From positions 1-64,000 of the forward strand of contig DATNEW010000041.1 of NCBI GenBank assembly GCA_035606695.1: a stretch of 64,000 bases of DNA, given 5' to 3'. Source of the DNA: Gemmatimonadaceae bacterium. GTDB lineage: Bacteria; Gemmatimonadota; Gemmatimonadetes; Gemmatimonadales; Gemmatimonadaceae. This document shows, one piece after another, positions 6,080 to 23,470 of the stretch (position 1 is the stretch's first letter; every line of letters begins with the position of its first letter). The notes under the pieces were generated by a model. It made no database searches and was not told the origin of the DNA. It saw nothing but the letters and a program-made list of their open reading frames with translations. A program made the position numbers and the translations under genes.

Positions 6080-6131
6080 GCAACGTGCTGACGCGCAGTT
6101 ACGTCACGATGTATCCGAGATTAACGCCGGA

Positions 6132-7133: not shown

Positions 7134-7170
7134 CCGCCCATCGCCCAACGCCCAGCGCCTACCGCCTACG
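7051..7170. repeat. Inverted TGGGCGN heptamer arrays, copy 1
   Basis: Left arm 7051-7092 is a run of degenerate TGGGCGN units on the plus strand. Right arm 7134-7170 holds the complementary CGCCCAN units. The arms flank about 40 bp that encode the signal peptide of the metalloprotease, and the right arm reaches the stop codon of the upstream TPR gene. Related arrays occur at 29616-29650 and 36041-36141. Confidence 0.75.
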
Positions 7171-8023
7171 GTTCCCCGCCTTCCTCCACCGTCTTCAGCA
7201 CGTCCGCGCAGCGTTTTCCCCACGGATTGAACTTGTTGGCCGCGAAGCCCGCCTTCCAGGTGTCGATCGCCTCGTCGCGCTGCCCATTGAACCAATACGC
7301 GCGCCCCAGCTCGTAATACGCCTCGATCAGGTTCGGACCGAGCGCAAGCGTTTTCTGAAAAAACGTCTGCGCGTCCTCGAACATGTCACGCTCGAGATAC
7401 ACCAGCCCCAGATAGAAGTGCGCGTAGAGCGTGGCCTTCTTGTCGTTGTCCAGCCGAATGGCGCGCGACAGATGCTCGATCGCCTCGCCGAAGATCCGCT
7501 TCTTCAGGCAAATGTAGCCCACGTTGATGCGCGCCACCGCGTTCTGCGGCTCACGCACCAGCACCTTCTGAAAATTCAGCAGCGCGTCGTCGAACTTGTC
7601 CTGCAGCATCAACGCCCAGCCGAGCAGCGATTCGGCCTGCGGATCGTTCGGCGACAGCTGCAGCGCCTTCGCCAACACCTGCTCGGCGCCCTCATAGTCG
7701 CCCGCGGAGATCTTGCCCCAGCCCTTCTCGATGAACGTCGACGCGCCGATGTGATCGGCGTGCACCGACGGCTTTTCCCCCGAGAACTGCGGCACGAACG
7801 ACGGTCGCGCCGTTCCGTTCTTGAGACCCTTCCACTTCTCGACGAGCGCGAGCACGTCGTCCTTGAGCGTCGTGAGCTCGGCGAGCTCCTGCTCGACGCG
7901 CTTGAACAATGTCGCAATGTCGTTCTTCAGCGCATCCAACTCGTTCGCCGCGCTCGGCGCGGTCAATCGCGCTTCGAGCGCGTTACGGCGTTCGCGAAGC
8001 TCGTCAGCCGAACGGTCAGGCAC
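7166..8023 (-). CDS. Coiled-coil TPR protein of the chemosensory cluster
   Basis: 285 residues with a GTG start. An N-terminal coiled coil (about 5-68, ending in TLKDDVLALVEKWKG) is followed by four to five TPR units from about residue 95 (AGDYEGAEQVLAKALQLSPN, DDALLNFQKVLVREPQN, FGEAIEHLSRAIRLDND, FEDAQTFFQKTLALGPN). No signal peptide, so it is cytoplasmic. It overlaps the upstream cheW by 8 bp, which implies coupled translation and a link to the array. Probably an adaptor or scaffold; its partner cannot be named from sequence. Confidence 0.75.
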   Translation of the reverse strand: MPDRSADELRERRNALEARLTAPSAANELDALKNDIATLFKRVEQELAELTTLKDDVLALVEKWKGLKNGTARPSFVPQFSGEKPSVHADHIGASTFIEKGWGKISAGDYEGAEQVLAKALQLSPNDPQAESLLGWALMLQDKFDDALLNFQKVLVREPQNAVARINVGYICLKKRIFGEAIEHLSRAIRLDNDKKATLYAHFYLGLVYLERDMFEDAQTFFQKTLALGPNLIEAYYELGRAYWFNGQRDEAIDTWKAGFAANKFNPWGKRCADVLKTVEEGGEP

Positions 8024-8534
8024 GCGCCGCGACCGCGGGTGCCGCGGGCACCGCGGGCAGCGACTGTTCGCCGGCTCCGGACGCGCGATCGAACGCGATG
8101 CGCGCCGCGCTCGTCAGCACGCGATCGACGTCCAGCACGACGATCAACTGATCGCGGACCTTCGCGATGCCGCGCACGAATTCCGCGGACAGGCCGCGAA
8201 ACAGCGCCGGCGGCTGCGTCACGCTCGTCGCGGGAATCGACGCCACTTCGTGAACCGCGTCGACGATCGCACCAACCCAACCGTCGGCGGTGGTCAGCAC
8301 CAACACACGCGTGTCCGGCGTGATCTCGAAATCGCCGAGACCGATGCGGCGGCGCATGTCGACGACCGGAATGACCTGGCCGCGATGCTCGATCACACCC
8401 TCGATCCACTCAGGGACGTCCGGCACCGCACTCGGCGACGTGTAGCGCAGGACGCGCTCAACGGAAAACACGTCGGCCGCAAACAGATCGAGGCCGAGCT
8501 GAAACGTCACGAGCTTCACCATGTCGGTCTTCAT
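8016..8534 (-). CDS. cheW: CheW-like chemosensory coupling protein 1
   Basis: 172 residues with one CheW domain (about 4-145), marked by VTFQLGLDLFAADVFSVERV, IEGVIEHRGQVIPVVDMRR and the closing DQLIVVLDVDRVL. CheW links the kinase CheA to receptors on the membrane. A 27-residue Ala/Pro-rich tail follows the domain. The ATG overlaps the stop of the second cheW (ATGA). One of three CheW proteins in the cluster, so it may serve a different receptor set or a non-receptor partner. Confidence 0.9.
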   Translation of the reverse strand: MKTDMVKLVTFQLGLDLFAADVFSVERVLRYTSPSAVPDVPEWIEGVIEHRGQVIPVVDMRRRIGLGDFEITPDTRVLVLTTADGWVGAIVDAVHEVASIPATSVTQPPALFRGLSAEFVRGIAKVRDQLIVVLDVDRVLTSAARIAFDRASGAGEQSLPAVPAAPAVAARA

Positions 8535-8998
8535 GATCTGTCCCCTCCGTCGGTCGCGACGGCCATTGCCAGGTCGAGCACCGCATCCACGTCCAGTACC
8601 GCGATCAGATCCGCGTTGCGTCGTACGACTCCGAGCAGCGTGCGATCCGATGCATCCGCCCCCGGGATCGCGCGCAGCTCGTCCTCGGCAACGGTGATCG
8701 CGTCGTGCACGTCGTCGACTGCCAACCCCACACGCCTCGCCTCGCGCTGAAACAGGAGGAGCGTGCCGCCCTGACCGCTGTCCAAAGTGTCGGCACGCGC
8801 GCGGAGCACCTGAGCCGCGCCGTAGACGGTGATCACCTCGTCGCGCAGCGTCGCGAGTCCCAGCTGGGTGGCCGATGCATCGGGCAGCGGCTGGATTGCC
8901 GGCGCTTCGATGACCTCGTCCACCGCACTGAGGGGCAGGCCGAAGTGCTCGGATCCCACGCGAAAGACGAGAAGGCGCGCGGTGCCGTCACGAAACAT
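8531..8998 (-). CDS. cheW: CheW-like chemosensory coupling protein 2
   Basis: 155 residues from an ATG at 8998; the open frame upstream of it runs antiparallel to cheB and shows no domain. The CheW fold covers nearly the whole protein: RLLVFRVGSEHFGLPLSAVDEVIEAP at the start, a shortened LRDEVITVYGAAQVL where IxxRGxVIPVVDL is usual, and NADLIAVLDVDAVL at the end. The loss of the conserved RG in the middle suggests altered partner binding. It overlaps cheB by 11 bp and the next cheW by 4 bp. Confidence 0.85.
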   Translation of the reverse strand: MFRDGTARLLVFRVGSEHFGLPLSAVDEVIEAPAIQPLPDASATQLGLATLRDEVITVYGAAQVLRARADTLDSGQGGTLLLFQREARRVGLAVDDVHDAITVAEDELRAIPGADASDRTLLGVVRRNADLIAVLDVDAVLDLAMAVATDGGDRS

Positions 8999-10067
8999 GA
9001 CGCACCGCCTCGACCAGTTCGGCGATCTGCCCACCGATGTCGTTGAGCGGCGCCACGCGATCGGCCCCGGCCTGCTGCAGCGCCGCCTGCGGCATGCCGA
9101 AAATGGTGGCCGTTTCGCGGTCCTGCAGCAGCGCGCGGCCGCCGCCGTCGCGAATGACGCGCGTGCCTTCAGCGCCGTCGCGGCCCATGCCGGTGAGCAC
9201 GACCGCAACCGTCGAGGGCCCGAATACCTGCGCCGCCGAGCGAAACAGCTTGTCCGCCGCCGGACGCACGCCCCAGATCGACGGTGTCGAATCGAGCTTG
9301 ATCGCCGGTCCCGCGCCCTCGTCGACGACCGTCATGTGGAATCCACCCGGCGCCACGTACCCCCGCGAATGCACGATCGGCTCACCGTCTTCAGCTTCGC
9401 TGATCGGAAGAGGGCTCATGCCATCGAGCCGGTTCGCGAGACTTCGCGTGAATCCCGCCGGCATGTGCTGCACGATGAGCACCGCGGCGGGAAGGTTGCG
9501 CGGCAAACGCGGCACGATGGCGGCCAGCGCGCGCGGTCCGCCGGTCGATGCGGCGATGACCACGGCGCTCGTCGCGCGCGACGTCGTCACCGACCCGCTC
9601 GTCGTGTCCGGCGCCGCCGTGCGCTGAAGCATGCGCAAGCCGGACGGATTCGCCGCGACGGCGGCGCGAAGCGCGTCGAGCAGACGCTTCGAGATCGACG
9701 CCACGTCGAGGCTGATCGAGCCCGACGGCTTCAATACGAAGTCGACCGCCCCGAGCTCGAGCGACCGCAGGGTCGCTTCCTGGCCGCTGTGTGTCGTGCC
9801 CGCGCTCAGCATCACCACCGGCCGCGGCGTTTCGCTCATGATGTAGCCGAGCGCGGCCAGGCCGTCGAGCTCCGGCATGTCGACGTCGAGCGTCACGACG
9901 TCCGGATCGAGCGCGTGAATCTGCTTCAGAGCATCGAAGCCGTTGCGTGCGGTACCGGCGACGATGAATTCGCCGGAGTCGTCGATGATCTCCGACACCA
10001 TGCGGCGCATGAATGCGCTGTCGTCGACGATGAGCACGCGCGGCTTGCCCGCTCGGCTAGAGGACAC
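8988..10067 (-). CDS. cheB: Chemotaxis receptor methylesterase/response regulator CheB
   Basis: 359 residues, GTG start. The receiver domain (about 10-125) has the acidic pair D15/D16 and phospho-acceptor D61 in VTLDVDMP. The CheB methylesterase domain (about 165-355) carries the catalytic Ser in AASTGGPRAL, His in VQHMPAGFT and Asp in TGMGRDGAEG. It removes methyl groups from receptor glutamates or deamidates glutamines when phosphorylated by CheA, giving adaptation. Its presence implies that methyl-accepting receptors exist elsewhere in the genome. It overlaps cheD by 11 bp. Confidence 0.95.
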   Translation of the reverse strand: MSSSRAGKPRVLIVDDSAFMRRMVSEIIDDSGEFIVAGTARNGFDALKQIHALDPDVVTLDVDMPELDGLAALGYIMSETPRPVVMLSAGTTHSGQEATLRSLELGAVDFVLKPSGSISLDVASISKRLLDALRAAVAANPSGLRMLQRTAAPDTTSGSVTTSRATSAVVIAASTGGPRALAAIVPRLPRNLPAAVLIVQHMPAGFTRSLANRLDGMSPLPISEAEDGEPIVHSRGYVAPGGFHMTVVDEGAGPAIKLDSTPSIWGVRPAADKLFRSAAQVFGPSTVAVVLTGMGRDGAEGTRVIRDGGGRALLQDRETATIFGMPQAALQQAGADRVAPLNDIGGQIAELVEAVRHVS

Positions 10068-10545
10068 GCGATCCTTTCCTCAAGGACCGAACTTCGACAC
10101 GACCGTCACACACATGAAAAAAGACACTCCGGCCATAGTCGCTCCCCGTATCCTCGGCGATAATGGGTACATTGGCGTCCGACAACGCGTCGCGCACGGC
10201 GACGATGTTCCGCTCGCCGATATTGATCCCGCCGGGCGGCAAGAGATTCCCGAACATGCTCGCGCCGCCGACGATCTTGGCGCGCACGCGTTGGAGACTT
10301 GCGCCGAGCCGCCGCATTTCATCGAGCAGCAACGGAATGGCGGTGCGGGGGAACTTGGCCGGGTTCGAGCGATCGCGCGACATCGTCTCGCTCGGCAACA
10401 GCACGTGCGCCATGCCGCCGACGTGGGTCGAGGCATCGTACAGCATGATCGCCACGCATGAGCCCAGGCCGATCGTCGAGATCGTCCCGTCCGCCGTGAC
10501 GGCGTAGTCGGCGACCTTGACCCGGATTTCGCCGTTGCCATTCAT
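10057..10545 (-). CDS. cheD: Receptor glutamine deamidase CheD
   Basis: 162 residues from an ATG at 10545 with AGGA seven bases upstream. CheD family features: VADYAV near the start, TIGLGSCVAIMLYD containing the catalytic Cys, GGMAHVLLP with the catalytic His, and KIVGGASMFG. It deamidates receptor glutamines and is often modulated by CheC, which is also encoded here. The gene lies between cheR and cheB, the usual adaptation block. Confidence 0.95.
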   Translation of the reverse strand: MNGNGEIRVKVADYAVTADGTISTIGLGSCVAIMLYDASTHVGGMAHVLLPSETMSRDRSNPAKFPRTAIPLLLDEMRRLGASLQRVRAKIVGGASMFGNLLPPGGINIGERNIVAVRDALSDANVPIIAEDTGSDYGRSVFFHVCDGRVEVRSLRKGSRVL

Positions 10546-10555
10546 ATGAGTTTCC

Positions 10556-11374
10556 TCATAGCCGGCGGAAGATGCGCTCGCGCGCGTCGACGGGGGCGAA
10601 CTTCGTGCGGGCCGCGCCCAGCAGCGTCTCGACCTTTCCGAGCACGAGAAATCCATCCGGCCTGAGCGCCGCGTGAAACTTGTCGAACAGGCGCTCCTGC
10701 GTGTCGCGATCGAAGTAGATGAGCACGTTGCGGCACACGACCATGTCGAACTGCCCCGACGGCGCGGGGTCGCTCAACAAATCGCGCCGCTCGAACTGCA
10801 CCAGCGGGCGAATGGCCGGCGAGACGGTATGCGGCGCCTCGGGCGAGAAGTAGCGCGAGCGCAAGTCGTCCGGCGTGTCGGCGAAATCGCCCTCCTCGAA
10901 CTGTCCTCGCGCCGCCGCCGCCAGGACCTGCCGGTCGATGTCGGTGCCCACGACCTGCACGCGCGACAATTGCGCGAGCATGCCGTGCGTCGCCGCGTAG
11001 CGATGGAACAGAATCGCGAGTGAATACGGTTCATCGCCCGACGAACAACCGGCGCTCCAGACCCGAATGTGCGACGTCTCGCGATGCCACAGCGCCGGCA
11101 CGACGTTCGCCGCCAACGACGCGTAGACCTCCCAGTTACGGAAGAGCTTCGTGACGTTGATCGTCAACGCGTCGAGCAGGCGATCGTACTCACCCGCGTC
11201 GTCGTCGAGAATACGCGCGTAGTCGGTATACGTATGGACACCCCGCGCGCGCATCCGAACCGCGATGCGGCGCCGCAGACATTTTTCCTTGTAGCTCGCG
11301 CAGCCGAAACCGCGCTCCGACGAAATCTTCCGGGTCAACTCCGTGAAGTCACCCGGGGACTGCTGTTCCACCAT
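10556..11374 (-). CDS. cheR: Receptor methyltransferase CheR
   Basis: 272 residues from an ATG at 11374 whose bases overlap the TGA of the upstream gene. An N-terminal CheR all-alpha domain (about 10-65, GFGCASYKEKCLRRRI) is followed by the SAM-dependent methyltransferase domain: VWSAGCSSGDEPYSLAI is motif I, GTDID motif II, and FDMVVCRNVLIYFD motif IV. It methylates receptor glutamates using SAM. No TPR or pentapeptide-binding extension is present. Confidence 0.95.
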   Translation of the reverse strand: MVEQQSPGDFTELTRKISSERGFGCASYKEKCLRRRIAVRMRARGVHTYTDYARILDDDAGEYDRLLDALTINVTKLFRNWEVYASLAANVVPALWHRETSHIRVWSAGCSSGDEPYSLAILFHRYAATHGMLAQLSRVQVVGTDIDRQVLAAAARGQFEEGDFADTPDDLRSRYFSPEAPHTVSPAIRPLVQFERRDLLSDPAPSGQFDMVVCRNVLIYFDRDTQERLFDKFHAALRPDGFLVLGKVETLLGAARTKFAPVDARERIFRRL

Positions 11375-12993
11375 CAAAACACCTGTCGAACGGATTCCAG
11401 GTTCGTGCGCACGATGGCGTTGTCGGGATCGAGCTCGAGAGCCCGCTCCCAACACCGCAGCGCTTCATCACGTTCCTGTCGGCGTAGCCGGATGTTACCA
11501 AGCTTCAAATAGACGTCGGCGCCCAGCGCGGGATTGGCCTTCGTCGCGCGCGAATACGCCTCGAGCGCGTCGTCGTACCGTCCCGCGCGATAATACAGGT
11601 CGCCGAGATTCTTGTGCGATTGCCCCACCCCGGGGTCTTCCTGAATCCCGTGCTCCGCCGTGGCGCGTGCGGTTTCGTAATCGCCCGCACGCTCCAGGAC
11701 CGCGGCCAGGTTGTTCAGAAGCACCGCCGCGTGCGGATACGCCTGGCCCCCCTCATTCAGTATCGACGCGGCGCGTGAAACGTCGCCGAGCAGTGCGGCG
11801 GTCAGCGACATATAGTGAAACCAGGCCCCGGTGGGCGGCCGCTTCCCGAATAAAGGCCGGGCCGCCGATAATGCCGAGTCCGCTGCGGCCAGGTCGCCGT
11901 CCAGCAGACTGACCACGCCCAGGGACGTCTGCACGCGCGCGTCGGTCGACCCGCCGCGACGGACCGCTTCGTCCAGCGCCACCCGCGCCTCCGCGAAGCG
12001 ATTCTGCTGCTCGTACGCGTATGCGAGATTGTGAAACACGGCCATCTTGGCGCCGGGTTGCGCCGCCGCTTCGGCGAACGCGGCGATCGCGTCCTCCCAT
12101 TTCTGCTGGCGCGCGTGAACGAGCCCGATGAAGAAGCGCGCCGTTCCGTCGCCCGTGCGCAGCTCCAGCACCCGGCGAAACTCGCGGATGGACTCGTCGA
12201 GCATGCCAGTTTTATAAAAGGCGATGCCGAGATTGCGGTGCTCGTCGGCGCGCCCTTCGTTCAGCACCACGGGCACCGCGGTCGTCTTGCCGATGCGGTG
12301 AATGAATCCGGCGTTCACGAGGCCGTACAGCACCTTGCCGACCTCGAACTCGACCAGGCCCGACGCGTCGATGATCGCCTGCACGTCGCGCGTGCCGTCC
12401 ACGAGCTCGAGCACCGCCCGCTGGTCTTCGGTGAGTTCGATCTCGCTCGTCAGCACCTTCGTCCGGTCCGTCTCGAAGACCAGATCGAACGACGGAATCT
12501 TCTTCTCGACGAGACTCCATTCGTCCACGCGCCGCGCGCCCTCGAGCAGCAGCGACTCGGGATTGATCGAGACGACGTGATCGTGCGGATCGGGCAGCAC
12601 GTCCGCCTCGAAATTGAACGTGCCTTGATTCCACGTGAACAGGAAGTACACCGCTTCCTGGATCTGCACTTCGATCGCATCGTGCAGATCCTGTAGGGTG
12701 ATCACGCCCTGCTCCACCAGCAGCTCGCCCAGCCGCTTGTCGCGCCGCTTGTCCTGCAGCGCGACCGCGGCATCGATCTGCGCCTGCGTCACCGAGCCGA
12801 TCTTGATCAGCATGTCGCCCAGGCGGTCGCGCCGATTCACGATCGACGCGTAGCAGATGCGGCCCTTGTCGAAGTAGATGTAGCCGAAGCTGTTTCGATG
12901 CGTGACGCTCAGGCAGCCCGTCTTCTTGCCCATCGACAGGAGCTGCAAGACGTCAGGCAGGCTGGCCTCTTTCAGACTTCCGCGAATGGCCAT
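11374..12993 (-). CDS. DUF4388 (PATAN) domain protein with TPR repeats
   Basis: 539 residues. Residues 1-100 form a DUF4388/PATAN domain (MAIRGSLKEASLPDVLQLL, KTGCLSVTHRNSFGYIYFDKGRI), followed by a second alpha/beta region (about 60-230) with LGELLVEQGVITLQDL and a GARRVDEWSLVEKKIP segment. From about 245 to the end it is a TPR array of roughly eight units. PATAN domains are known from response regulators and adaptors of twitching and phototaxis systems. The ATG overlaps the upstream TAA by one base. A second DUF4388 protein at 17188-18138 shares the same segment order but lacks the TPR array, which suggests duplication within the cluster. Confidence 0.8.
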   Translation of the reverse strand: MAIRGSLKEASLPDVLQLLSMGKKTGCLSVTHRNSFGYIYFDKGRICYASIVNRRDRLGDMLIKIGSVTQAQIDAAVALQDKRRDKRLGELLVEQGVITLQDLHDAIEVQIQEAVYFLFTWNQGTFNFEADVLPDPHDHVVSINPESLLLEGARRVDEWSLVEKKIPSFDLVFETDRTKVLTSEIELTEDQRAVLELVDGTRDVQAIIDASGLVEFEVGKVLYGLVNAGFIHRIGKTTAVPVVLNEGRADEHRNLGIAFYKTGMLDESIREFRRVLELRTGDGTARFFIGLVHARQQKWEDAIAAFAEAAAQPGAKMAVFHNLAYAYEQQNRFAEARVALDEAVRRGGSTDARVQTSLGVVSLLDGDLAAADSALSAARPLFGKRPPTGAWFHYMSLTAALLGDVSRAASILNEGGQAYPHAAVLLNNLAAVLERAGDYETARATAEHGIQEDPGVGQSHKNLGDLYYRAGRYDDALEAYSRATKANPALGADVYLKLGNIRLRRQERDEALRCWERALELDPDNAIVRTNLESVRQVF

Positions 12994-14906
12994 TAGCGGA
13001 ATTCCTCGATGAGACGGGCCGACGCATCGGGCCACTGCCACACGATCTTTTCGCGGTCGAGGAAGAACGTATCCGCCGCGCTCTTGAGCGCCGCCGTGCG
13101 CGAGGCTTCGCTGTCATCCGGCTCGAGCTGCGCGCGAATGAAGCCGATCGTCACGGGCACCGCCGCCACTTCGGCCGACGCGAGAATGCGATTCGCCGTT
13201 CCAATGATCTCGCGCACGCTCGCCACCGGCCGTTCGGCGAGATACGACAGGATCTCCGGCGTCGGATCGACGCCCAGGTCGCGCATGAAGCGAGCATACA
13301 GCCGCTCGCGGAGCGCGCGATCGGGCGACTGCATCTGGACGACGAGGCCGCCCTCGAAGCGCGAACGCAGCCGCTCCTCGAGACCCGACAGCTCACGCGG
13401 CGGTCGATCGCTCGCGATCACCAGTTGCTTCCCGTCCGCGTACAACGCATTGAACACGTGGAAGAGCTCTTCCTGCGTCCGCTCCTTGCCGGCGACGAAT
13501 TGCACGTCGTCGAGCAGCAGCGCCGAGGCCGCGCGATAGCGCGTGCGCCAGCGATCCACCGTGCCTTCCTGGAGCGCGGCGATCAACTCGTCCACGAACA
13601 ATTGCGCCGGCACGCATGCGATGGCGCCGCCCGTCGCTTGCACGAGGCCGTTCCCGATCGCGTTCAACAAGTGCGTCTTGCCCACGCCGCTCGGCCCATG
13701 CACGAAGAGCGGATTGTAGCGGCTGCCCGGCACACCGACGATCGCATCGGCCGCCTTCACCGCGAGCTGATTGCTCAGCCCGACTTCGAAGCCGCCGCGT
13801 GTGAATGCGGCCGATGGCCCCGGAGGCGGCGCCGACGTGCGCTGCGCGCGCTCGAGCAGTTGCTCGGCTTCGCTCAGTCGATCGGGATCGCGAAGGACGT
13901 CGTGCGACGCGAGCGTGGCGTCGATGCGCACGATCTGCTTCTCGAGCTCGCGCAGCTTCGACACTGTCGCCTCGAACTCGCGCAGCAACGTCTCGACGCT
14001 CGGCGGAGGCGCCGGGTCGCTCAGCGCGCGCTCGAGAGGCCCCGTCTTGAACCCTTCGCCGCGCCAGTAGTCGATGCCCTCGCTCAAGCGCGCCTTCCAC
14101 TGCTCGACGTGCTGCGACACCACCGACGCGATGTCCGTGAGGAAAGTCGCGAATTCGCCGCTCAGTCGCGGCGGCGCGCTTCGCGCGCGCTGATCCGCGA
14201 GGTCCCCGAGAATGCTCAGCACCTGTTCGGGCGCGATCTGCTCTCCGCCGAGCGTCTGGAACGCGATCAATCGGTTGAGCGCGCCCTGTAGCTCGCGCAC
14301 GTTCTTGAACTCGATGCGCCCGACCTCTTCGGTCACGCCGGCCTTGAAGCGCACGCCGCGCTCCTCGCACTTCGCCTTGAGAATCGCCATTCGAGTTTCA
14401 TAATCAGGCGTTCCCATGTCCACGATTAATCCGCCCGACAGCCGCGTGAGCAAACGCTCATCGACGTCGGCGATGTCCGTGGGCGGGCGGTCGCTCGTCA
14501 TCACGATCTGACGGCCGTCCGCCTGGAGCGCGTTGAAGATGCGCAGCAGCTCGTTCTGCGTCTCCTTGTGGCCGGTCAGGAACTGCATATCGTCGATCAG
14601 CAGCAGCCCGACCTTGAGATACTTCTCCTTGAAACGCTCGGTGTCGCCCGCCGCGACCGCCGCGTGCAGCTCCTCGACGAAATCGTCGAGCGTCACCAGC
14701 TCGACGACCGCACCACGCTTCGCGACGACGTGGTTGCCGATCGCGCTCATCAAATGCGTCTTGCCAAGCCCCGACGAGCTGTACATGAACAGCGGGTTGT
14801 ACACGGCGCCCGGCGCATCCGCCACGGCGCGCGCCGCCGCGACAGCCAGGCGATTCGCCGAGCCGACGACGAAATTGTCGAAGCGAAGTTTGGAGTCGAT
14901 CTGCAT
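12993..14906 (-). CDS. Tandem DnaA-like AAA+ ATPase lacking the DNA-binding domain
   Basis: 637 residues holding two DnaA/Hda-type AAA+ modules. Module 1 (about 5-235): Walker A SGLGKTH at 45-51, Walker B LLLIDD at 101-106, sensor 1 MTSDRPP, arginine-finger region RLLTRLSGGL, sensor 2 NVRELQGALNRL. Module 2 (about 370-590): Walker A GPSGVGKTH at 404-412, Walker B LLLDDVQF at 463-470, arginine-finger region RLRSRFEGGL, degenerate sensor 2 SVREIIGTANR. A 130-residue helical, partly coiled-coil linker joins them. The DnaA domain IV helix-turn-helix that reads DnaA boxes is absent, so it is not the replication initiator. It sits between the MglA gene and a DUF4388-TPR gene, arguing for a role in assembly or polarity of the chemosensory apparatus; that role is inference. 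Confidence 0.8.
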   Translation of the reverse strand: MQIDSKLRFDNFVVGSANRLAVAAARAVADAPGAVYNPLFMYSSSGLGKTHLMSAIGNHVVAKRGAVVELVTLDDFVEELHAAVAAGDTERFKEKYLKVGLLLIDDMQFLTGHKETQNELLRIFNALQADGRQIVMTSDRPPTDIADVDERLLTRLSGGLIVDMGTPDYETRMAILKAKCEERGVRFKAGVTEEVGRIEFKNVRELQGALNRLIAFQTLGGEQIAPEQVLSILGDLADQRARSAPPRLSGEFATFLTDIASVVSQHVEQWKARLSEGIDYWRGEGFKTGPLERALSDPAPPPSVETLLREFEATVSKLRELEKQIVRIDATLASHDVLRDPDRLSEAEQLLERAQRTSAPPPGPSAAFTRGGFEVGLSNQLAVKAADAIVGVPGSRYNPLFVHGPSGVGKTHLLNAIGNGLVQATGGAIACVPAQLFVDELIAALQEGTVDRWRTRYRAASALLLDDVQFVAGKERTQEELFHVFNALYADGKQLVIASDRPPRELSGLEERLRSRFEGGLVVQMQSPDRALRERLYARFMRDLGVDPTPEILSYLAERPVASVREIIGTANRILASAEVAAVPVTIGFIRAQLEPDDSEASRTAALKSAADTFFLDREKIVWQWPDASARLIEEFR

Positions 14907-14912
14907 GGGCGC

Positions 14913-15515
14913 CTATCTCGTCGCGCCGTTGCCGGCGAGCCGCTTGAGCACCAGCTCCGAGATCGACTTCAGCGTCTCGAACACACCCGGGCCGTGCAGC
15001 GCATCGGCCGAGAACTCGGGCACCCCCCGAAAGTTCAGCGCATCCGACAATTCGTTCGTGCTCAGGATCAGCTCCGGCGGTAAATCCTGCTTGTTGTACT
15101 GAATCACCAGCGGAACACTGCGGGCTTCCACGCCCTGATCGGCGAGGTTCGCATGGAGATCCTGGAAGCTCTCCACGTTCTCGTCGAGCTGGCGCGACTG
15201 GCTGTCGGCCACGAACACCACGCCGTCGGCGCCTTGCAGCACCAACTTTCGCGTCGTTTGATAATAGACCTGTCCAGGCACCGTGTAGAGCTGAAACTTC
15301 GTCGTGAACCCGGAGATCATCCCCAAGTCGAGAGGCAGAAAATCAAAGAAGAGCGTGCGATCCGTCTGCGTCGCCAGCGACACCATCTTGCCTTTGCGGT
15401 CGTCCGGCACCTGGCCGTAGATGTAATGCAGATTCGTCGTCTTCCCGGACCGCCCCGGCCCGTAGTAGACGATCTTGCACGTGATCTCGCGCGTCGCGTA
15501 GTTGACGAGACTCAT
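14913..15515 (-). CDS. mglA: MglA-type small Ras-like GTPase
   Basis: 200 residues from an ATG at 15515 that overlaps the roadblock gene stop (ATGA). P-loop GPGRSGKTTN is near residue 20, the MglA switch sequence TDRTLFFDFLPLDLG follows, then TVPGQVYY where MglA has its unusual Thr instead of the Asp of most Ras proteins, and NKQDLP as guanine motif. MglA sets cell polarity, positioning motility complexes and type IV pili in its GTP form, with MglB as GAP. Roadblock proteins lie directly upstream, as in known mglBA pairs. Here it is embedded in a che cluster. Confidence 0.92.
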   Translation of the reverse strand: MSLVNYATREITCKIVYYGPGRSGKTTNLHYIYGQVPDDRKGKMVSLATQTDRTLFFDFLPLDLGMISGFTTKFQLYTVPGQVYYQTTRKLVLQGADGVVFVADSQSRQLDENVESFQDLHANLADQGVEARSVPLVIQYNKQDLPPELILSTNELSDALNFRGVPEFSADALHGPGVFETLKSISELVLKRLAGNGATR

Positions 15516-16027
15516 GACAGCGGCACCCCGCCGGGCCGCTTCGTGACGCTCGGCTCTTCGCGCCCGAACAGCGCCGCGAGATTGCGATTCAAATCCGCTT
15601 CGAAATCGACCGCGAGCGCGGGCGCGGCCACCGGCTCGCTCGCCGGCGCCGCCGCGGACAACTCGCGCTGCAAGTCGTCGAAGTAAATCCGCACGAGCCC
15701 AAGCGAGCTCGCCGAGTCGAACACCGTCAGACAAACGTACGCGCCGCGTGTCGTTTCGATCGCCGCCATGTAGAGTTGCTTGTCCGGGCCGGCATAGTGA
15801 AGACCGCGAAATGGTTTGCCGTCGACGCGACGTCCGAGCTCGCCCGCCGTCGCGTGCGACGCGGCCGCGAGCGCGCACGCCGTCATCACGTCGACCTCGC
15901 GCGTGAATCCCGCCTGGGCCATGACCTGGCCGGAGGGATGCAGCAACAAGGCGAGACGCGCGCGCGCATCGTCCACGAACCGCCGGAGCGGTGCTTCGAC
16001 CCACGCTTCGACCGCGGCGATGTTCAT
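15512..16027 (-). CDS. Roadblock/LC7-like protein
   Basis: 171 residues. Residues about 8-118 fit a roadblock/LC7 fold (ALLLHPSGQVMAQAGF, DVMTACALAAASHATAGELG, YMAAIETTRGAYVCLTVFD, SSLGLVRIYFDDL). An Ala/Pro-rich linker and a short C-terminal segment follow. Proteins of this type regulate small GTPases, MglB being the MglA GAP. The ATG overlaps the stop of the previous roadblock gene and its own stop overlaps the mglA start, so three proteins are translationally coupled. The extra C-terminal 50 residues are not typical of MglB. Confidence 0.75.
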   Translation of the reverse strand: MNIAAVEAWVEAPLRRFVDDARARLALLLHPSGQVMAQAGFTREVDVMTACALAAASHATAGELGRRVDGKPFRGLHYAGPDKQLYMAAIETTRGAYVCLTVFDSASSLGLVRIYFDDLQRELSAAAPASEPVAAPALAVDFEADLNRNLAALFGREEPSVTKRPGGVPLS

Positions 16028-16374
16028 TCGAGCGTCTCCAGCGCCTTCAGCAATTCCATGCGGATGAGACCGACGTTCGCTGCCGCATCCGCAACGACCA
16101 CGATCACGAGGTCACTACGGCCACCGACGGCGCAGATCCGTCCGCGCTCGGCATCGAGCTGCAGGAACGCAACCGCGCCCAGTCGTGCGGCGCGCGCCGA
16201 CAACCGGGCTTTCCGGTACATGGAGGCCGCCAGGGCGGCGACCCGCTCGCCGTCCTGGCCGAATCGCAGGTTCGAATCGACGACGAGTCCGTCACTCTCG
16301 GAGACGATCAAGCTCGCCCGTACGCCACGCTGCCGCGTCAGAGAATCGAGCATTTCGCTAAAGGGCGTGCTCAC
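16024..16374 (-). CDS. Roadblock/LC7 protein, MglB-like
   Basis: 116 residues from a GTG at 16374 that overlaps the previous TGA (GTGA). The whole protein is a roadblock/LC7 domain: MLDSLTRQRGVRASLIVSES, DGLVVDSN, RVAALAASMYRKAR, ICAVGGRSDLVIVVVADAAANVGLIRMELLKAL. Size and fold match MglB, the GTPase-activating partner of MglA, better than the other two roadblock proteins here. The N-terminus up to position 16374 is preferred because the frame above it is opposite to coding sequence and lacks domain features. Confidence 0.8.
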   Translation of the reverse strand: MSTPFSEMLDSLTRQRGVRASLIVSESDGLVVDSNLRFGQDGERVAALAASMYRKARLSARAARLGAVAFLQLDAERGRICAVGGRSDLVIVVVADAAANVGLIRMELLKALETLE

Positions 16375-17195
16375 TGGCGGTCTCCCCCGTTCCGCTCGAC
16401 GCCGAGCCACACGGCGGCCCGGTCGGCGCAACGTTCGAGGAGCCGGCGAAGCAAGCCCAGCGGGGTCGCGCGACTGGCGGCCACGACCATCAAGCTGTTG
16501 TCGCGTCCGGGCGCCATGGCGACGACGGCTGCCTGGGTCTCGAACGTGATCGCCTTCCAGTCGCCGATGTCGAGGTGCCGCGCCGACCGCAGCACTTCGT
16601 CCGAGATGCCACTCAGCTGCGCACCGACGTCCTGCGCGACGTTGGTCCCTTCGGCGTCGAGATACACACCCGCCATCACGTAGCCGCTCGCATCGAGGAG
16701 CAGCGCCGTCTGTCCCGCGTCGACCAGCAGATCGGCGAAGAGATATTGGGGATCTTCGGCCTGCGCTTCCGACGGCAGCGTCGGAGCGAGCATGCCACCC
16801 GACGAGCGACGCACCGTCGCGAGCGCGTTCGACACATCGCTGCCCGCGCCGCCCGCCGCCGCTTTGCTGAGAAATCGCTCGGCATCCTCGAAGCGGCCCT
16901 GCTGGAAACAGACATAGCCCAGGCCCTTCATCGCGCCGAGATGCGCCGGCTTGATGCGCAGCACCGTTTCCCACTCTTCCATGGCGCGCGCGAAGTCGCG
17001 GCGATCGACCGCGATCCGCGCCACGAGATCGTGCGCATCGGCGTTCATCTGATGCCGATCGAGACCGCGCAGCGCGATCTTGAGCGCCACCTCGAGCTGT
17101 CCCTGCCGGCGCAACGCTTCGCCGAGTTGCAGGAACACCAGACTCGAAGGATCGCGCGCGAGCTCATCGCTCCACCGCCGGACGTCGTCAGCCAT
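16371..17195 (-). CDS. TPR plus roadblock-like fusion protein
   Basis: 274 residues from an ATG at 17195, overlapping the upstream gene by 8 bp. Residues about 1-115 contain three TPR units (LFLQLGEALRRQGQLEVALK-type repeats). Residues about 145-270 look like a roadblock/LC7 domain (LFADLLVDAGQTALLLDASG, YVMAGVY, NSLMVVAASRATPLGLLRRLLERC). It would join a protein-binding scaffold to a GTPase regulator, so it may recruit MglA to a partner. The domain assignment of the second half is by pattern and needs profile confirmation. Confidence 0.7.
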   Translation of the reverse strand: MADDVRRWSDELARDPSSLVFLQLGEALRRQGQLEVALKIALRGLDRHQMNADAHDLVARIAVDRRDFARAMEEWETVLRIKPAHLGAMKGLGYVCFQQGRFEDAERFLSKAAAGGAGSDVSNALATVRRSSGGMLAPTLPSEAQAEDPQYLFADLLVDAGQTALLLDASGYVMAGVYLDAEGTNVAQDVGAQLSGISDEVLRSARHLDIGDWKAITFETQAAVVAMAPGRDNSLMVVAASRATPLGLLRRLLERCADRAAVWLGVERNGGDRQ

Positions 17196-18138
17196 TGGGC
17201 CGCACCTCCAGCACGCGTTGGAGCTTGGCGATCGCATCGAGCGCATCGCGCGCATCGGCCGCCACCGGACCACTCGGCGACATCTTGAGCAGTTGCTCGA
17301 CCGCGCTGCGCGCCGTGGTGAGATCCGCCGCGACGAAGCGAATGGTCGTCATCGGCAGACTCGGATCGTTGGCGGCGTACACCGGCGAATCCGGTGTCGC
17401 GCGCGTGGACTTGGCCGCTCCCGCAACGACGACACCCGTCGTCGCCAATCCGTACGCGATCTTCGCGATCTCGAATTCGTCGCGGCCGAGCGATGCCGCG
17501 ATCGCTCGCAGATTCCGCTCGCCGTCGATCATCGTGAGCACCTGCCACTCGTGCGGCAAGAGATCGAGCATCGTGCCTTCGCGATCGTTCTCGACCGGCG
17601 CGAGCTCGGGCACCACGTCGAGATTCGGAATGACGTCGTCGATGCGCGACCATTCGTCGATGCGCCGCGCGCCCTCCATGAGCAGCGACTCCGTCGAGAC
17701 GCTGATGCGCGTTTCCACCGCGATCTCGTCGCGTGGACGCTCGTCGAAACGGAAGAACCCTTCGCGCCACGACATGAGCTCGAACACCACGCTCTCGATC
17801 TGCAACCGAAGCTGCCGCTCGAGCTCGCGCTGCGTGATCGCGCCGATCTCGACGAGCAGATCGACGACATCCCGATTCGCGCGGCCGTTCTGCTGACACG
17901 ACCGCGCGCGCGCGACGTCGGCTTCGCTGACGCGCCCCGCCTGCATCAGCGCCTCTTCGGTCGTCACCGGCTTGCTGCGAATGGTCGCCTGCACGACGCG
18001 GCCGTTGTCGAACGCCACGACGCCTTCGTCTTCGCGAAGATCCGAGGTGACGCGCAGCGTCCCCGTCTTCCGGCTCAAATCCAGAAGCTGGAAGACGTCG
18101 TGAATGCCGAGCTCGCGGAGCGGTCCTTCGATCGCCAT
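17188..18138 (-). CDS. DUF4388 (PATAN) domain protein
   Basis: 316 residues from an ATG at 18138, two bases after the TPR gene stop. N-terminal DUF4388/PATAN domain (MAIEGPLRELGIHDVFQLL, SRKTGTLRVTS, VVAFDNGRVV), a middle region with LLVEIGAITQRELERQL and VFELMSWREGFFRFDE, then GARRIDEWSRIDDVIPNLDVV and a winged-helix-like segment (HEWQVLTMIDGERNLRAIA). The first 230 residues parallel the other DUF4388 protein of the cluster (11374-12993). The function in this setting is unknown; PATAN proteins elsewhere connect receivers to pilus-based movement. Confidence 0.75.
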   Translation of the reverse strand: MAIEGPLRELGIHDVFQLLDLSRKTGTLRVTSDLREDEGVVAFDNGRVVQATIRSKPVTTEEALMQAGRVSEADVARARSCQQNGRANRDVVDLLVEIGAITQRELERQLRLQIESVVFELMSWREGFFRFDERPRDEIAVETRISVSTESLLMEGARRIDEWSRIDDVIPNLDVVPELAPVENDREGTMLDLLPHEWQVLTMIDGERNLRAIAASLGRDEFEIAKIAYGLATTGVVVAGAAKSTRATPDSPVYAANDPSLPMTTIRFVAADLTTARSAVEQLLKMSPSGPVAADARDALDAIAKLQRVLEVRPNG

Positions 18139-18140
18139 GG

Positions 18141-20843
18141 CTATGCGGCTCCGCGCGCGCCGAAGACGCGTTGCAGGTCGTTCGCCGTGCGAATCTCGCG
18201 GCGCGCGCGACGGGCGTAGTCGCTCGTCGGCGCCAGCGCGAGCACTTTCTCCCACCGCTGCACCGCATCGCGATACCGGCGCTGCTCGGCGAGAATCGTC
18301 CCTTCGTGAAACAGCGCGCCAACGTGCGTCGGATCGAACCGCAGCACGCGCGCGAATGCGTGGATCGCATCGCGCTTCCGACCGAGGGTCAAGAGCGTCT
18401 CGCCGAGTCCGATCAACGCGTCGAAATGATAGGGATCGCGCTGCAGGAGATCGATCAACAGCGACAGCGCATCCGACGTCCGGCCAATGCGCCGCCGCAG
18501 GCCCGCCAGCTCGAGCGTGGCTTCAGCGTACGTCGGCACGGCATCGAGCGCCGCGACGAGCTCCTGCTCAGCTTCGCGCGTATTCCCCTTCGCCTCGAGG
18601 AGCTTGGCAAGATGGAAGCGCACGACGGCGAAATCCTGATCGAGCTCGAGCGCGTGACGGTACGCCGCGATCGCGCCTTCGTTGTCGCCGAGCGAACGCG
18701 CGATGTCGCCCACCTTTTGCTGCACGTCGGCCCGCATCGGCGCCACGCGCCGCGCGGCATCGAGCAGCGCCAGCGCCGCGGCGGGATCACCCGCTTCCGC
18801 ACACGCCGTCGCCGCAAGCATGAGCACGTCGGGATCGTCACCGTGTTCGTCGAGCAGACGTTCCGCGATCGGGCGCGCCTCGAGCGCGCGTCCGAGTCGC
18901 ACGAGCGACCAGGCTTCGCCCACACGCGCCGAACGGCGTGTGGAATCCAACCGCAGCGCTTCGCGATAGCGCTCGAGCGCTTCGCCGAACAATCCTTGTT
19001 TCGCGAACACGTCGCCGAGCAACGCCATGCCATCGGCGCGCGCGTGACCACGGCCGATCGCGCGATTGATCTCAGCGGACGCGCGGTCGTACAAGCCCTT
19101 CGACAGGTAATCGGCCGCCATCGCGAACGGCGACGCTTCCGTGCTGCGTGCAGGCGTCGGCGTGGCGGGCGTCGGCGCCGGCGTCAACTCCGTGAAGAGC
19201 GTGTCGAGGGACTGCGGATCGAAGTTGAAATCGGCGACGGCCGTATCGGTCGGACGCTCGCCGCCCAAATCCGGCTGGATCGAGAGATCGGGATCCTCGT
19301 ACTCGACGTCCATCGCCAGCTCGAACTTCTGCGCGACGTAGTACGGATCGAGCTCCAAGGCGCGCTTCGTCTCACGCAACGCGCCCTCGAAGTCGCCGAG
19401 ATTCGAGAGCGTGAAGCTCATGTTGTAATGCGCTTCGGCAAAGTCCGGACGCGCCTGAATCGAGCGGGCGAATGCATTGCGCGCATCCTCGAACTTGCGC
19501 AGCTCCGTCAGCACGAGGCCGATGCCGTTCCACGCGACGGGATGCTCCGCCTCGGTCGTGAGCACCTGGCGATACGCGTCGAGCGCGAGCGGAAAGCGCT
19601 TTCCGCGGCACAGGAGCAGCGCCAGGTTGAGGCGCGCCTTCACGAACGTCGGCTGCCCATCGAGCGCCTGCCGAAATGCCGCGATCGCGCCATCGACGTC
19701 GCCGCTGTGATACAGCGCGACCCCAAAATTGTTTTGCGCGATCGCATACCCCGGCTCGACATGCAGCGCACGCGCATAACTCTCGGCGGCTTCCGCGTAG
19801 CGGCCTTGTTGATGCAGCGCGACGCCGTGCTCGCTCCACAGCTTGGGGCTCTGCGACTGCCGGTGCAGAAGCTCCTCGTACACGGCGAGCGCCTCGTTCG
19901 GCTGTCGCATGAGCAAATGCACTTCGGCCATCGCCTGCAGCACGAGGTCCCGCTCTTCGCCGCGCTCCAACGCTTTCGCGTATTCGCGCAGCGCCTCGGC
20001 GTAGTAGCCCTTGCTGCGGAACGCGAGGCCGAGATTGTACTGCGCGAGCTGGCTTTCACCGCTGACCTGCAGCTCGCGCTTTGCGTCGGGCAGCTGCGCG
20101 GCATCCCGCGCGATCCCGCCTTGCCGCTGTTGATCGATCGCGAGATTGGCGTGCGCGCGGGACAGCGCCGGGTTGAGCTTGATCGCGCGCCGCGTGACGG
20201 CCTGCGCGTCGGTGTGCCGGCCGATGTCGCCGAGCACGAAGCCCATCAGATACAAGGCGTCGTGATTCTCGGGATTGAGCTCGATCGCGCGCTCGAGCGC
20301 GCGCAGCGCGTCGTCGTTCAGGCCGCGATGATACAGCACTTCGCCGAGCGTGAAATGCAGCAGCGAGCTGTCGGGATCGAGCGAGAGCGCGCGCTCGACG
20401 TACGACTGCGCGCGCTCGATGTCGCCCGACAGTTTCTCCGCCAGCGCGAGCTGCAGGAGCGCGCCGACGTCGGTCGGATTGAACTGGAGCAGCGACCGAA
20501 ACTCTTCGGCCGCCTCGTCCTGCTGGCCGAGCAGCGAGAACGTGCGGCCGAGCTCCCAGCGCGCGTCGCGGTCGTCGGGCTTGAGGCGCAGGCGGTCTTT
20601 CAGTTCTGGTATTCTAGTATCGTAATAACCGGTGTTGAAGTACGCGACTTCGAGGTTGCGCTGCGCGACCTCCATCTTCTGATCGAGCTCCAGCGCCTTC
20701 ATGAACGCCGCGACGGCCTCGGCGTACAGGCCCTTGTTGTAATAGAGCACGCCGAGGTTGTTGTGCGCCCCCGCGTCCGACGGATCGATCCGCCGGGCGA
20801 ACGACCGAAGAACTTCGCGATCGCGTTCGGAGGTCAGCACCAT
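18141..20843 (-). CDS. Large TPR scaffold protein
   Basis: 900 residues, almost entirely TPR units, about twenty in two arrays split by a disordered Thr/Pro-rich linker (about residues 560-580, containing TPAPTPATPTPARS). Typical units are AGAHNNLGVLYYNKGLYAEA and NDDALRALERAIELNPEN. No signal peptide or membrane helix is seen, so it is probably cytoplasmic. The ATG at 20843 is two bases after the cheC stop; a TTG two codons upstream is possible. Co-translation with CheC suggests that it binds the chemosensory proteins. It is the largest non-canonical component of the cluster. Confidence 0.8.
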   Translation of the reverse strand: MVLTSERDREVLRSFARRIDPSDAGAHNNLGVLYYNKGLYAEAVAAFMKALELDQKMEVAQRNLEVAYFNTGYYDTRIPELKDRLRLKPDDRDARWELGRTFSLLGQQDEAAEEFRSLLQFNPTDVGALLQLALAEKLSGDIERAQSYVERALSLDPDSSLLHFTLGEVLYHRGLNDDALRALERAIELNPENHDALYLMGFVLGDIGRHTDAQAVTRRAIKLNPALSRAHANLAIDQQRQGGIARDAAQLPDAKRELQVSGESQLAQYNLGLAFRSKGYYAEALREYAKALERGEERDLVLQAMAEVHLLMRQPNEALAVYEELLHRQSQSPKLWSEHGVALHQQGRYAEAAESYARALHVEPGYAIAQNNFGVALYHSGDVDGAIAAFRQALDGQPTFVKARLNLALLLCRGKRFPLALDAYRQVLTTEAEHPVAWNGIGLVLTELRKFEDARNAFARSIQARPDFAEAHYNMSFTLSNLGDFEGALRETKRALELDPYYVAQKFELAMDVEYEDPDLSIQPDLGGERPTDTAVADFNFDPQSLDTLFTELTPAPTPATPTPARSTEASPFAMAADYLSKGLYDRASAEINRAIGRGHARADGMALLGDVFAKQGLFGEALERYREALRLDSTRRSARVGEAWSLVRLGRALEARPIAERLLDEHGDDPDVLMLAATACAEAGDPAAALALLDAARRVAPMRADVQQKVGDIARSLGDNEGAIAAYRHALELDQDFAVVRFHLAKLLEAKGNTREAEQELVAALDAVPTYAEATLELAGLRRRIGRTSDALSLLIDLLQRDPYHFDALIGLGETLLTLGRKRDAIHAFARVLRFDPTHVGALFHEGTILAEQRRYRDAVQRWEKVLALAPTSDYARRARREIRTANDLQRVFGARGAA

Positions 20844-20845
20844 GA

Positions 20846-21472
20846 TCAAGCGACGCGGACAGCCTTGAGAATGGCCTGCAGCGAGGCGGGATCGGGAAGC
20901 AACAGGAAGAATCCGCGCAGCTTCTCGTCGGTGTCGTTCATGTAGAACTCGCTCTCGACGCAGAACACGTAGTCCCGGTCGGAACCGAACTGCAAGTAGG
21001 TCGTCGTCAGCACCGCGTTCGACATGTCCACCGCCAGCGCCGGCGGCGACGGCAGGAGCATCATCCCCATGAAATCGCTGAGCGCGTTCATGTACGCGGA
21101 GCTCAGGATGTTGCCGGCTTCCTTGATCGCCGACTGATCCATCTCCGAAAACTCGTCGCTGTCCGGATCGACGACCGGGCGGCGCATCAACATGCCCGCC
21201 AGCCGCCGCGCCGTGCGCCGCGGAAAGACGAGCAGCGTGCGGCCCGTGAGATCCCCGAGCATGTGCATCAACACCGCCGCCACGGGCTCGTCGGGCGCCG
21301 CGACTTCCGGCCCGACATCCTCGAGCGGCGACACGTTGATCGTCGGCACGCTGATCATGATCGTTTCACCGACCATTTGCGACAACGCCGTCGCCGCATG
21401 ACCAGCGCCGATGTTCGCGACCTCGCGCAGCGCGTCGAGCTGAATGGCCTTCAGACTCCGCAGATCGTCCAT
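20846..21472 (-). CDS. cheC: CheY-P phosphatase CheC
   Basis: 208 residues from an ATG at 21472 with AGGA upstream. Two copies of the CheC active-site signature E-x2-N are present: LREVANIGAGHAATALSQM near residue 15 and IKEAGNILSSAYMNALSDF near 120, so both phosphatase centres look intact. CheC dephosphorylates CheY-P and binds CheD to control receptor deamidation. It lies just downstream of cheA. Confidence 0.92.
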   Translation of the reverse strand: MDDLRSLKAIQLDALREVANIGAGHAATALSQMVGETIMISVPTINVSPLEDVGPEVAAPDEPVAAVLMHMLGDLTGRTLLVFPRRTARRLAGMLMRRPVVDPDSDEFSEMDQSAIKEAGNILSSAYMNALSDFMGMMLLPSPPALAVDMSNAVLTTTYLQFGSDRDYVFCVESEFYMNDTDEKLRGFFLLLPDPASLQAILKAVRVA

Positions 21473-21511
21473 GAGTTCCTCAAAGAGGAGTAACCACACC
21501 ACGCACACGCA

Positions 21512-23470
21512 TCACAGCAGACTGCTCACATCGACGATCAACGACGGCGTGCCGTCGCCGAGCAGCGTGGCACCGCCGAAGAACGTCGGCCCATCGTGCA
21601 CGGCATCGTACTGCTTCACCACGATCTCTTCCTGGCCCGTCAGCTCGTCGATCACGAGCCCCGCCCGACGATCGCCGACGTCGATCACCACGACCTGTTC
21701 GAGATCGATGTCGCTGCGCGGCTCATACGCCGGCAAATCGACGAGCGAACGCAAACGAAGCAGCGGCAGCACTTCGTCGCGCGCCAGCAGCACCTCACGC
21801 CCCTTCACCGTTCGCACCACATCGGCTGTGAGCTCGATCGTCTCGTTCACGTGCACGAGTGGAATGGCGTACGTCTCGTCGGCGACGCGCGCCAGCAACG
21901 CGCGCACGATCGCGAGCGTGAGCGGCAGACGCAGGAGCATCGTCGTGCCTTGTCCCTGCACCGACCGAATGTCCATGGCACCGCCGAGCGACCGAACGCG
22001 CGTGTACACCGCATCCACGCCGACGCCGCGACCGGAGAGATCCGTGACCTTCTCCGCCGTCGAAAACCCCGGCCGCGCGATGAGTCGCAGCAGCTCGTCG
22101 GGGCTCAGATCCGTCTTGTGCTCGTCGACCAGCCCATCGCGCTTCGCGCGCGCCAGGACCTTGTCGCGGTCGATGCCTTTGCCGTCGTCGCTCACCTTGA
22201 TCACGACCGCCGAGCGATCGCGGACGGCGCTGAGCGTCAGTCGGCCCACAGGCGATTTGCCGGCCGCTTCACGCACGGCCGGCATCTCGAGCCCGTGATC
22301 GATCGAGTTGCGCAGCAGATGCACGATCGAATCGCCGATCTCGTCGAGCATCGAGCGATCGAGCTCGATATCCTTGCCCTCGACGATGAACTCGACCTGC
22401 TTGCCGACCGCACGCGCCGCGTCGCGCACGACGCGCGGAAAGCGATCGAAGACGTGCGACACCGGCACCATGCGGCTGGCTGTGATTTCGTCGCGCAGCT
22501 CGGTGATGAGCCGCGACGATTGCGACACGGTCTCCTCGAGCGCGGCATCGCCGATCTCCGCGGCGAGCTGCGTCAAGCGTCCGCGCGCGATCACCAGCTC
22601 GCCGATGAGATTCATCAAGTTGTCGAGCCGCCGCACGTCGATGCGCACCGACCGCGCCGGCGCCGCTGCAGGCGCACCTGGAACTGCACCTGGACCTGCC
22701 CCGCCCTGCGGCACGGCGGCGACACTCGTCGGCGTCGGCGAGCGGGGCGCGGCGGCGATGGGCGCGGATGCCTGCGCCGCCGCATGCTCCTCGTCCTCTC
22801 CGACCTGCACGTCCGTAACATCGCCGGCGCTGCGCGCGACACGATCGATGTCGGCGGCGCCCGACGGCGTCAACAGACGCAGCGCGAAATCCGCATCGAA
22901 GCCGTCGATTTGAATTTCCTCGAGCGGCGGCTCGGTGCCCGTCACTTCGCCGATGCGCCCGAGCGCCTGCACGATGATGAACGCGCGCACGCCCTTGAGC
23001 GGCGTGTCGGGCGCAAGACGCACGCGCACCAGCGTGCCGTCGCCCGGCGGCGCGTCGACCGTCCACCCTTCATCGCCCGCCTCGTGCTCGACCATGCCGC
23101 GCAGTCGCTCGACGAGCTCTGTCGTGACGACCGCGCCTTCGCGTCCGGCGACCGCGGCTTCGACCGCTTGCTCGAGGACGTCGGCCGCGCGAAACAACAC
23201 GTCGGTCACGTCGCCGTCGATCGCGAGCTCGTTGCGCCGCACACGATCGAGCACGGTCTCGAGCTCGTGCGCGAGCTCGGCGACGATGGCGTAGCCCATC
23301 GTCGCGCCCATGCCCTTGATCGTGTGGACGGAGCGGAAGATCGCGCCCACCGCCGCCGTCGCCGACGCACCCCCGCCGCCCTGCTCGAGCTCGAGCAGCG
23401 CCTGATTCACCGCGGTGATGTGCTCGCGGCTCTCGGTGAGGAATAGCTCCGCGTACTGCTCGTTATCCAC
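21512..23470 (-). CDS. cheA: Chemosensory histidine kinase CheA
   Basis: 652 residues, GTG start. P1 HPt domain with phosphorylated His in FRSVHTIKGMGATMG (about residue 49); a P2-like domain (about 135-225, GVRAFIIVQALGRIGEV); an Ala/Pro-rich linker; P3 dimerisation (about 275-340, VDVRRLDNLMNLIGELV-like); the P4 ATPase with N box LLRNSIDHG, G1 SDDGKGID and G2 GRGVGVDAV; and a CheW-like P5 domain (about 510-650). It is the complete five-domain plan of a classical CheA. It would phosphorylate the CheY and CheB encoded in the same cluster. Confidence 0.95.
   Translation of the reverse strand: MDNEQYAELFLTESREHITAVNQALLELEQGGGGASATAAVGAIFRSVHTIKGMGATMGYAIVAELAHELETVLDRVRRNELAIDGDVTDVLFRAADVLEQAVEAAVAGREGAVVTTELVERLRGMVEHEAGDEGWTVDAPPGDGTLVRVRLAPDTPLKGVRAFIIVQALGRIGEVTGTEPPLEEIQIDGFDADFALRLLTPSGAADIDRVARSAGDVTDVQVGEDEEHAAAQASAPIAAAPRSPTPTSVAAVPQGGAGPGAVPGAPAAAPARSVRIDVRRLDNLMNLIGELVIARGRLTQLAAEIGDAALEETVSQSSRLITELRDEITASRMVPVSHVFDRFPRVVRDAARAVGKQVEFIVEGKDIELDRSMLDEIGDSIVHLLRNSIDHGLEMPAVREAAGKSPVGRLTLSAVRDRSAVVIKVSDDGKGIDRDKVLARAKRDGLVDEHKTDLSPDELLRLIARPGFSTAEKVTDLSGRGVGVDAVYTRVRSLGGAMDIRSVQGQGTTMLLRLPLTLAIVRALLARVADETYAIPLVHVNETIELTADVVRTVKGREVLLARDEVLPLLRLRSLVDLPAYEPRSDIDLEQVVVIDVGDRRAGLVIDELTGQEEIVVKQYDAVHDGPTFFGGATLLGDGTPSLIVDVSSLL

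Follow-up and report, generated by a model that had tools for sequence, protein, structure and literature searches.

In the lineage of the Gemmatimonadota, the ATPase domain of DnaA was captured a single time and then duplicated. The gene in which we describe this lies in a window of 64,000 nucleotides from a Gemmatimonadaceae bacterium (GenBank assembly GCA_035606695.1, contig DATNEW010000041.1), where it runs on the minus strand from 14906 down to 12993 and encodes a protein of 637 amino acids (aa) in which Pfam finds the Bac_DnaA domain (PF00308) twice, with an E-value of 5e-105 over the full chain. We think it reasonably likely that the duplicated ATPase serves as a polarity and chemosensory adaptor for a protein that combines a PATAN (DUF4388) domain with tetratricopeptide repeats (TPRs), and that its ATP switch clusters such units, which then act on type IV pili. 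Its probable role is that of a scaffold that is driven by ATP and serves surface motility, not DNA replication. As an ATPase of a replication initiator recruited to cell polarity and motility, it would be unusual.

Two domains that define DnaA gave no match in the 637-aa protein, namely DnaA_N (PF11638, domain I), the chain beginning directly at domain III, and Bac_DnaA_C (PF08299, domain IV), the helix-turn-helix that binds DnaA boxes. The genome's own DnaA, used as a positive control, matched PF00308, PF11638 (1.5e-9) and PF08299 (2.7e-24), so both absences are real. The original prediction, made from the sequence of the window, had already noted the lack of domain IV and had proposed a check for a normal dnaA elsewhere in the genome; an ordinary dnaA is indeed present at G000:C39:21169-21651 (474-aa frame). 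Because the two defining domains are missing, the 637-aa protein is not a replication initiator. The NCBIfam equivalog TIGR00362 (DnaA) nevertheless matches it in two stretches at 512.5 bits, where the cut-off is 343.9. Annotation pipelines may for that reason label the gene a second DnaA, a naming trap through which Gemmatimonadota genomes may carry spurious annotations. The score for TIGR03420 (Hda) was 173.2 bits, below the cut-off of 194.8, and no beta-clamp-binding motif of the QxLxL type was seen on reading the N-terminus, MQIDSKLRFDNFVVG. The best sequence and fold matches in the PDB are the DnaA proteins of B. subtilis, A. aeolicus and T. maritima. A role in defence was rejected, PADLOC giving only weak matches to generic ATPase parts.

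Two unequal modules joined to a conserved linker and tail

The gene (12993..14906), delimited by its open reading frame (ORF) and its orthologues, encodes four parts. The N-module (residues 1-236, 14199..14906) is, by Pfam, alignment and Foldseek, a complete DnaA domain III ATPase with K49, D105, D106, the arginine finger R155 and the sensor-2 R204, and E115 replaces the arginine of the B-motif for single-stranded DNA (ssDNA). The C-module (residues 366-596, 13119..13811) is, by Pfam and alignment, a second copy of domain III whose ATP site varies across the family; here it carries the arginine finger R516, R512 and R565, which aligns with the sensor-2 arginine R334 of E. coli. The prediction of two DnaA-type modules, which had left the strand unstated, was thus correct, as were the arginine-finger strings quoted for them (RLLTRLSGGL and RLRSRFEGGL) and, for this protein, the assignment of Walker A, Walker B and sensor 1 to both. 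The sensor 2 of the C-module had been called degenerate, which R565 contradicts in the 637-aa protein, although the description fits the family, in which this arginine is kept in only 49/87 double proteins.

Between and behind the modules lie two parts that the prediction had missed. Family comparison and the predicted model place a helical linker domain at residues 248-358 (13833..14165), a confidently predicted helical bundle with a mean predicted local distance difference test (pLDDT) of 85 and a net charge of -6 over 111 residues. No Pfam domain matched it above cut-off; a weak ABC_tran_CTD match below cut-off was taken as coiled-coil noise, and the best comparisons with known PDB folds (Foldseek E 2.5, VIA-align Z 4.6) were unconvincing. 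The C-terminal tail (residues 609-637, 12996..13082), FFLDREKIVWQWPDASARLIEEFR, is conserved in the family alignment as FFLDxEKvvWdWP...RliEe, with E619 and W625 in 87/87 double proteins. Its pLDDT is below 50 in the full-length AlphaFold2 model, and it looks like a short docking motif. Structure modelling, which had been suggested as a check, matched the N-module to domain III of B. subtilis DnaA (8bv3, Foldseek) but did not place the two modules reliably relative to each other; with a predicted template modelling score of 0.47, their arrangement could not be used.

Residue conservation, counted over 87 double proteins, bears out the expectation that the modules are functionally unequal. The catalytic residues of the N-module are almost invariant (K49 and D105 87/87, D106 86/87, R204 85/87, R155 82/87), and its position 115, equivalent to the ssDNA-binding R245 of E. 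coli, is Glu in 76/87. The corresponding counts for the ATP site of the C-module are 67/87 for K410, 71/87 for D466, 67/87 for D467 and 51/87 for the sensor-1 residue D500. Walker A or B of the C-module is lost in two clades of the f4/f5 type, so that these motifs do not mark both modules family-wide; such members, for example L074-L092, have a C-module without an ATP site and conserved arginine fingers in both modules. The interface residues R516, R512 and L521 of the C-module are each kept in 86/87 and align with R285, R281 and L290 of E. coli DnaA, which together with K243 are needed for the contact between neighbouring domains III (PMC5742627). Equivalents of R281, R285 and L290 are kept in both modules, that of K243 mainly in the C-module. 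Because the finger and interface persist where the ATP site is gone, the duty shared by all C-modules looks like that of donating them. To judge from these residues, the AAA+ modules look like a switch through which ATP controls assembly; head-to-tail assembly that depends on ATP is thereby supported only indirectly.

Capture, loss and distribution

When N- and C-modules, single modules and domain III of DnaA were placed in one tree, all modules of the family were monophyletic with respect to DnaA (100% ultrafast bootstrap); within the family, the C-modules formed one clade and the N-modules plus singles another, each again with 100%. This topology indicates one capture of DnaA domain III followed by an internal duplication. 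The singles fall inside the N clade, which makes it probable that the double form came first and that families f6 and f9, where single-module forms occur, have lost the C-module. Genus g8 has forms without a C-module in which the N-module is truncated or decayed, and in two f1 genomes (G158 and G244) both AAA+ modules are gone and the linker and tail stand alone between the same neighbours. The linker-tail is retained where AAA+ modules are lost and is therefore the part of the protein that persists most, though it is not absolutely universal. The idea that a built-in double module seeds a filament as the core function of the protein was not supported by these comparisons, the C-module being lost in several lineages and both modules in the two genomes that keep the linker-tail. 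That the protein may form filaments is still a reasonable hypothesis. The natural series of double, single, decayed and absent AAA+ parts separates the contribution of ATP-dependent assembly from that of the adaptor alone. Among individual members, L215:6766-7776 and L216:7411-8211 occupy the same operon slot and consist of linker and tail alone, lacking any AAA+ domain, and L219:7145-8710 (minus strand), which has no C-module, carries a low-complexity stretch of the PVVAPVV type between linker and tail.

A profile of the linker-tail (A1) matched 176/296 sampled Gemmatimonadota genomes, and none of 201 Chloroflexota genomes, 132 genomes of a Zixibacteria-type phylum or 12 assorted genomes; with a second profile (A2), all ORFs matched in a KSB1/Calditrichota-type phylum had the size of canonical DnaA. 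With orthologues in about 60% of the sampled Gemmatimonadota and a fixed gene order, the observation is far beyond chance. Ordinary dnaA genes were among the matches listed in the profile search of genome contigs, and a plasmid search with the linker gave no match. Ten matches in a phage collection (H1-H10) were set aside as apparently ordinary bacterial dnaA in phage-labelled records. A bacterial-type dnaA match in a metagenome-assembled genome labelled as a Thermoplasmata archaeon (L153) looks like bin contamination. We found no paper linking DnaA with MglA, DUF4388 or polarity in Gemmatimonadota.

A polarity and chemosensory operon and its probable tie to type IV pili

As the original prediction had noted, the neighbours are signalling and polarity genes. 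The slot order is fixed, an MglA gene being followed by the DnaA-like gene and the PATAN-TPR gene, usually within a Roadblock/Che operon. By simple neighbour scoring, the PATAN-TPR gene is the next one downstream in 57/60 loci, and in the other three it belongs to the same gene group and is displaced by the sorting of stop-to-stop ORFs; MglA is present in 43/60. In the window the ATG of the PATAN-TPR gene and the stop of the DnaA-like gene share one nucleotide (TAATG). Exactly this overlap occurs at about 34 of 55 measured junctions and suggests translational coupling.

All genes of the window's operon lie on the minus strand and were assigned by Pfam and neighbourhood. The PATAN-TPR protein (11374..12993) is most likely the direct partner of the DnaA-like protein, and a Ras-like GTPase of the MglA type (14913..15515) is encoded directly upstream of the latter. 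Further upstream are a conserved 171-aa neighbour (15512..16027) that is Roadblock-like by position only and has no Pfam match, an MglB-like Roadblock/LC7 protein (16024..16974) whose true start may lie further in, a TPR protein with a weak Roadblock match (16371..17273), a second PATAN protein (17188..18255), a large TPR protein of 902 aa (18141..20849), a CheC/CheX-like phosphatase (20846..21508) and a CheA histidine kinase (21512..23470). Downstream, the block 7166..11455 encodes CheR (10556-11455), CheD (10057-10656), CheB (8988-10067), two CheW proteins (8531-9208 and 8016-8534) and a TPR protein (7166-8023). An ORF at 6121-7104 has no Pfam match; in several genomes, ORFs like it come after the TPR gene where the cluster ends. 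In one f5 locus the DnaA-like/PATAN-TPR pair stands beside an isoleucyl-type tRNA synthetase gene, which is also found near the cluster in the window. Very long plus-strand frames antisense to the operon, such as 18171-20945, reach up to 924 aa and are probably an effect of composition.

PilT-family genes are more numerous in genomes that carry the DnaA-like family. In f1 the mean was 4.0 copies with the family and 2.3 without it (p about 1e-12), and in f5 it was 2.9 and 0.66 (p about 5e-12), where the p-values ignore relatedness, up to six scored candidates were counted per genome, the lists of carriers were compiled by hand and G221 was taken as positive for the family. Carriers had the excess in 7/8 within-genus contrasts, with one tie. 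In Synechocystis, the PATAN protein PixE has been reported to interact with PilB1 (PMC7690835); type IV pili are under MglA control in Myxococcus, and PATAN proteins co-occur with SgmX (PMC11580455). The PilT association, the tie of PATAN to a pilus motor in cyanobacteria and the control by MglA in Myxococcus together make type IV pili the likeliest output. A flagellar role was rejected because many genomes that carry the family have no flagellin.

Proposed mechanism, alternatives and related systems

The mechanism that we favour is as follows. The linker-tail would be the effector or docking part and would most likely bind the translationally coupled PATAN-TPR protein. ATP would sit in the N-module, its pocket being closed head to tail, as in DnaA, by an arginine finger that could belong to another N-module or to a C-module, whether in the same chain or in a neighbouring one. 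The AAA+ assembly would in this way gather several linker-tail-PATAN units into a cluster, which hydrolysis, aided by the intact sensor 2 of the N-module, might disperse. The cluster would receive MglA/Roadblock and Che input and act on type IV pili, most likely on their number or polar position. In a bolder form of this proposal, which we regard as possible but rather unlikely, DnaA-type head-to-tail assembly would proceed on ATP without DNA and form a polar scaffold that signals from MglA and Che would switch; if so, machinery for starting replication has been reused as part of the polarity skeleton.

Several observations weigh against the adaptor proposal. The link to PilT copy number is correlative, with genome size and relatedness as confounders, and flagellin correlates with the family as well (in f1, 51/74 genomes with it and 6/28 without). 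The f5 loci examined hold the DnaA-like/PATAN-TPR pair without MglA or a full Che set. A double-module member with an apparently deleted linker (L145:5557-7074, 506-aa frame) still adjoins the PATAN-TPR gene. Where a clade's C-module has no ATP site, each chain has two conserved fingers for a single pocket, a ratio that a filament of simply alternating N- and C-modules would leave unexplained. Finally, R476 of the C-module, which corresponds to R245 in the ssDNA motif of E. coli, is kept in 84/87, and a purely protein-protein role would not require it.

This last residue also bears on a different explanation, in which the C-module, through its ssDNA motifs, binds the nucleoid or ssDNA and so sets where the polarity complex lies with respect to the chromosome; the hydrophobic and basic residues I442, K474 and R476 align with V211, K243 and R245 of E. 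coli. We consider it quite improbable, given that K474 is Thr in 24/87, that the N-module mostly has Glu at the R245 position, that domain IV is absent and the linker is acidic, and that several lineages dispense with the C-module. The retention of R516 and of the box VII arginine R512, even where the C-module has lost its own ATP site, could mean instead that the finger acts on the ATP bound to the genuine DnaA and sets off its hydrolysis, as an Hda-like regulator that couples motility state to replication initiation. The DnaA-like interface and the weak TIGR03420 match would fit this, but that match is below cut-off, domain III starts directly with no clamp-binding motif seen before it, the operon neighbours are polarity genes, and some lineages keep the linker-tail in the same operon with no AAA+ part at all; the regulator therefore seems improbable. 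Such repeated loss or decay with the operon slot kept might even suggest that the AAA+ part is a largely inert leftover, a rigid dimer spacer, and that the linker-tail does everything. A spacer would have no need of the near-invariant K49, D105 and R204 found in most lineages, which makes this very improbable.

The adaptor proposed here can be set beside four known systems. With DnaA domain III it shares the AAA+ core, Walker A and B, sensors 1 and 2, the arginine finger and box VII; it differs in having two copies per chain, an extra helical domain and tail and no domains I and IV, and in being encoded in a polarity operon of a genome with a separate, normal dnaA. Hda/HdaA are likewise domain III-like proteins without domain IV, although the 637-aa protein does not reach the Hda cut-off. 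PATAN proteins are common to this operon and to cyanobacterial PixE/PixG, which are linked to type IV pili; PixE and PixG are PATAN-CheY fusions, whereas the PATAN domain of this operon is joined to TPRs and coupled with a protein derived from DnaA. The MglA/MglB/SgmX/FrzS/SopA network of Myxococcus resembles the operon in bringing together an MglA-type GTPase, Roadblock and TPR proteins and a Che-type system. PMC11580455 mentions no DnaA-type component in that network, whereas the Gemmatimonadota operon places a dedicated AAA+ adaptor between MglA and the PATAN-TPR protein.
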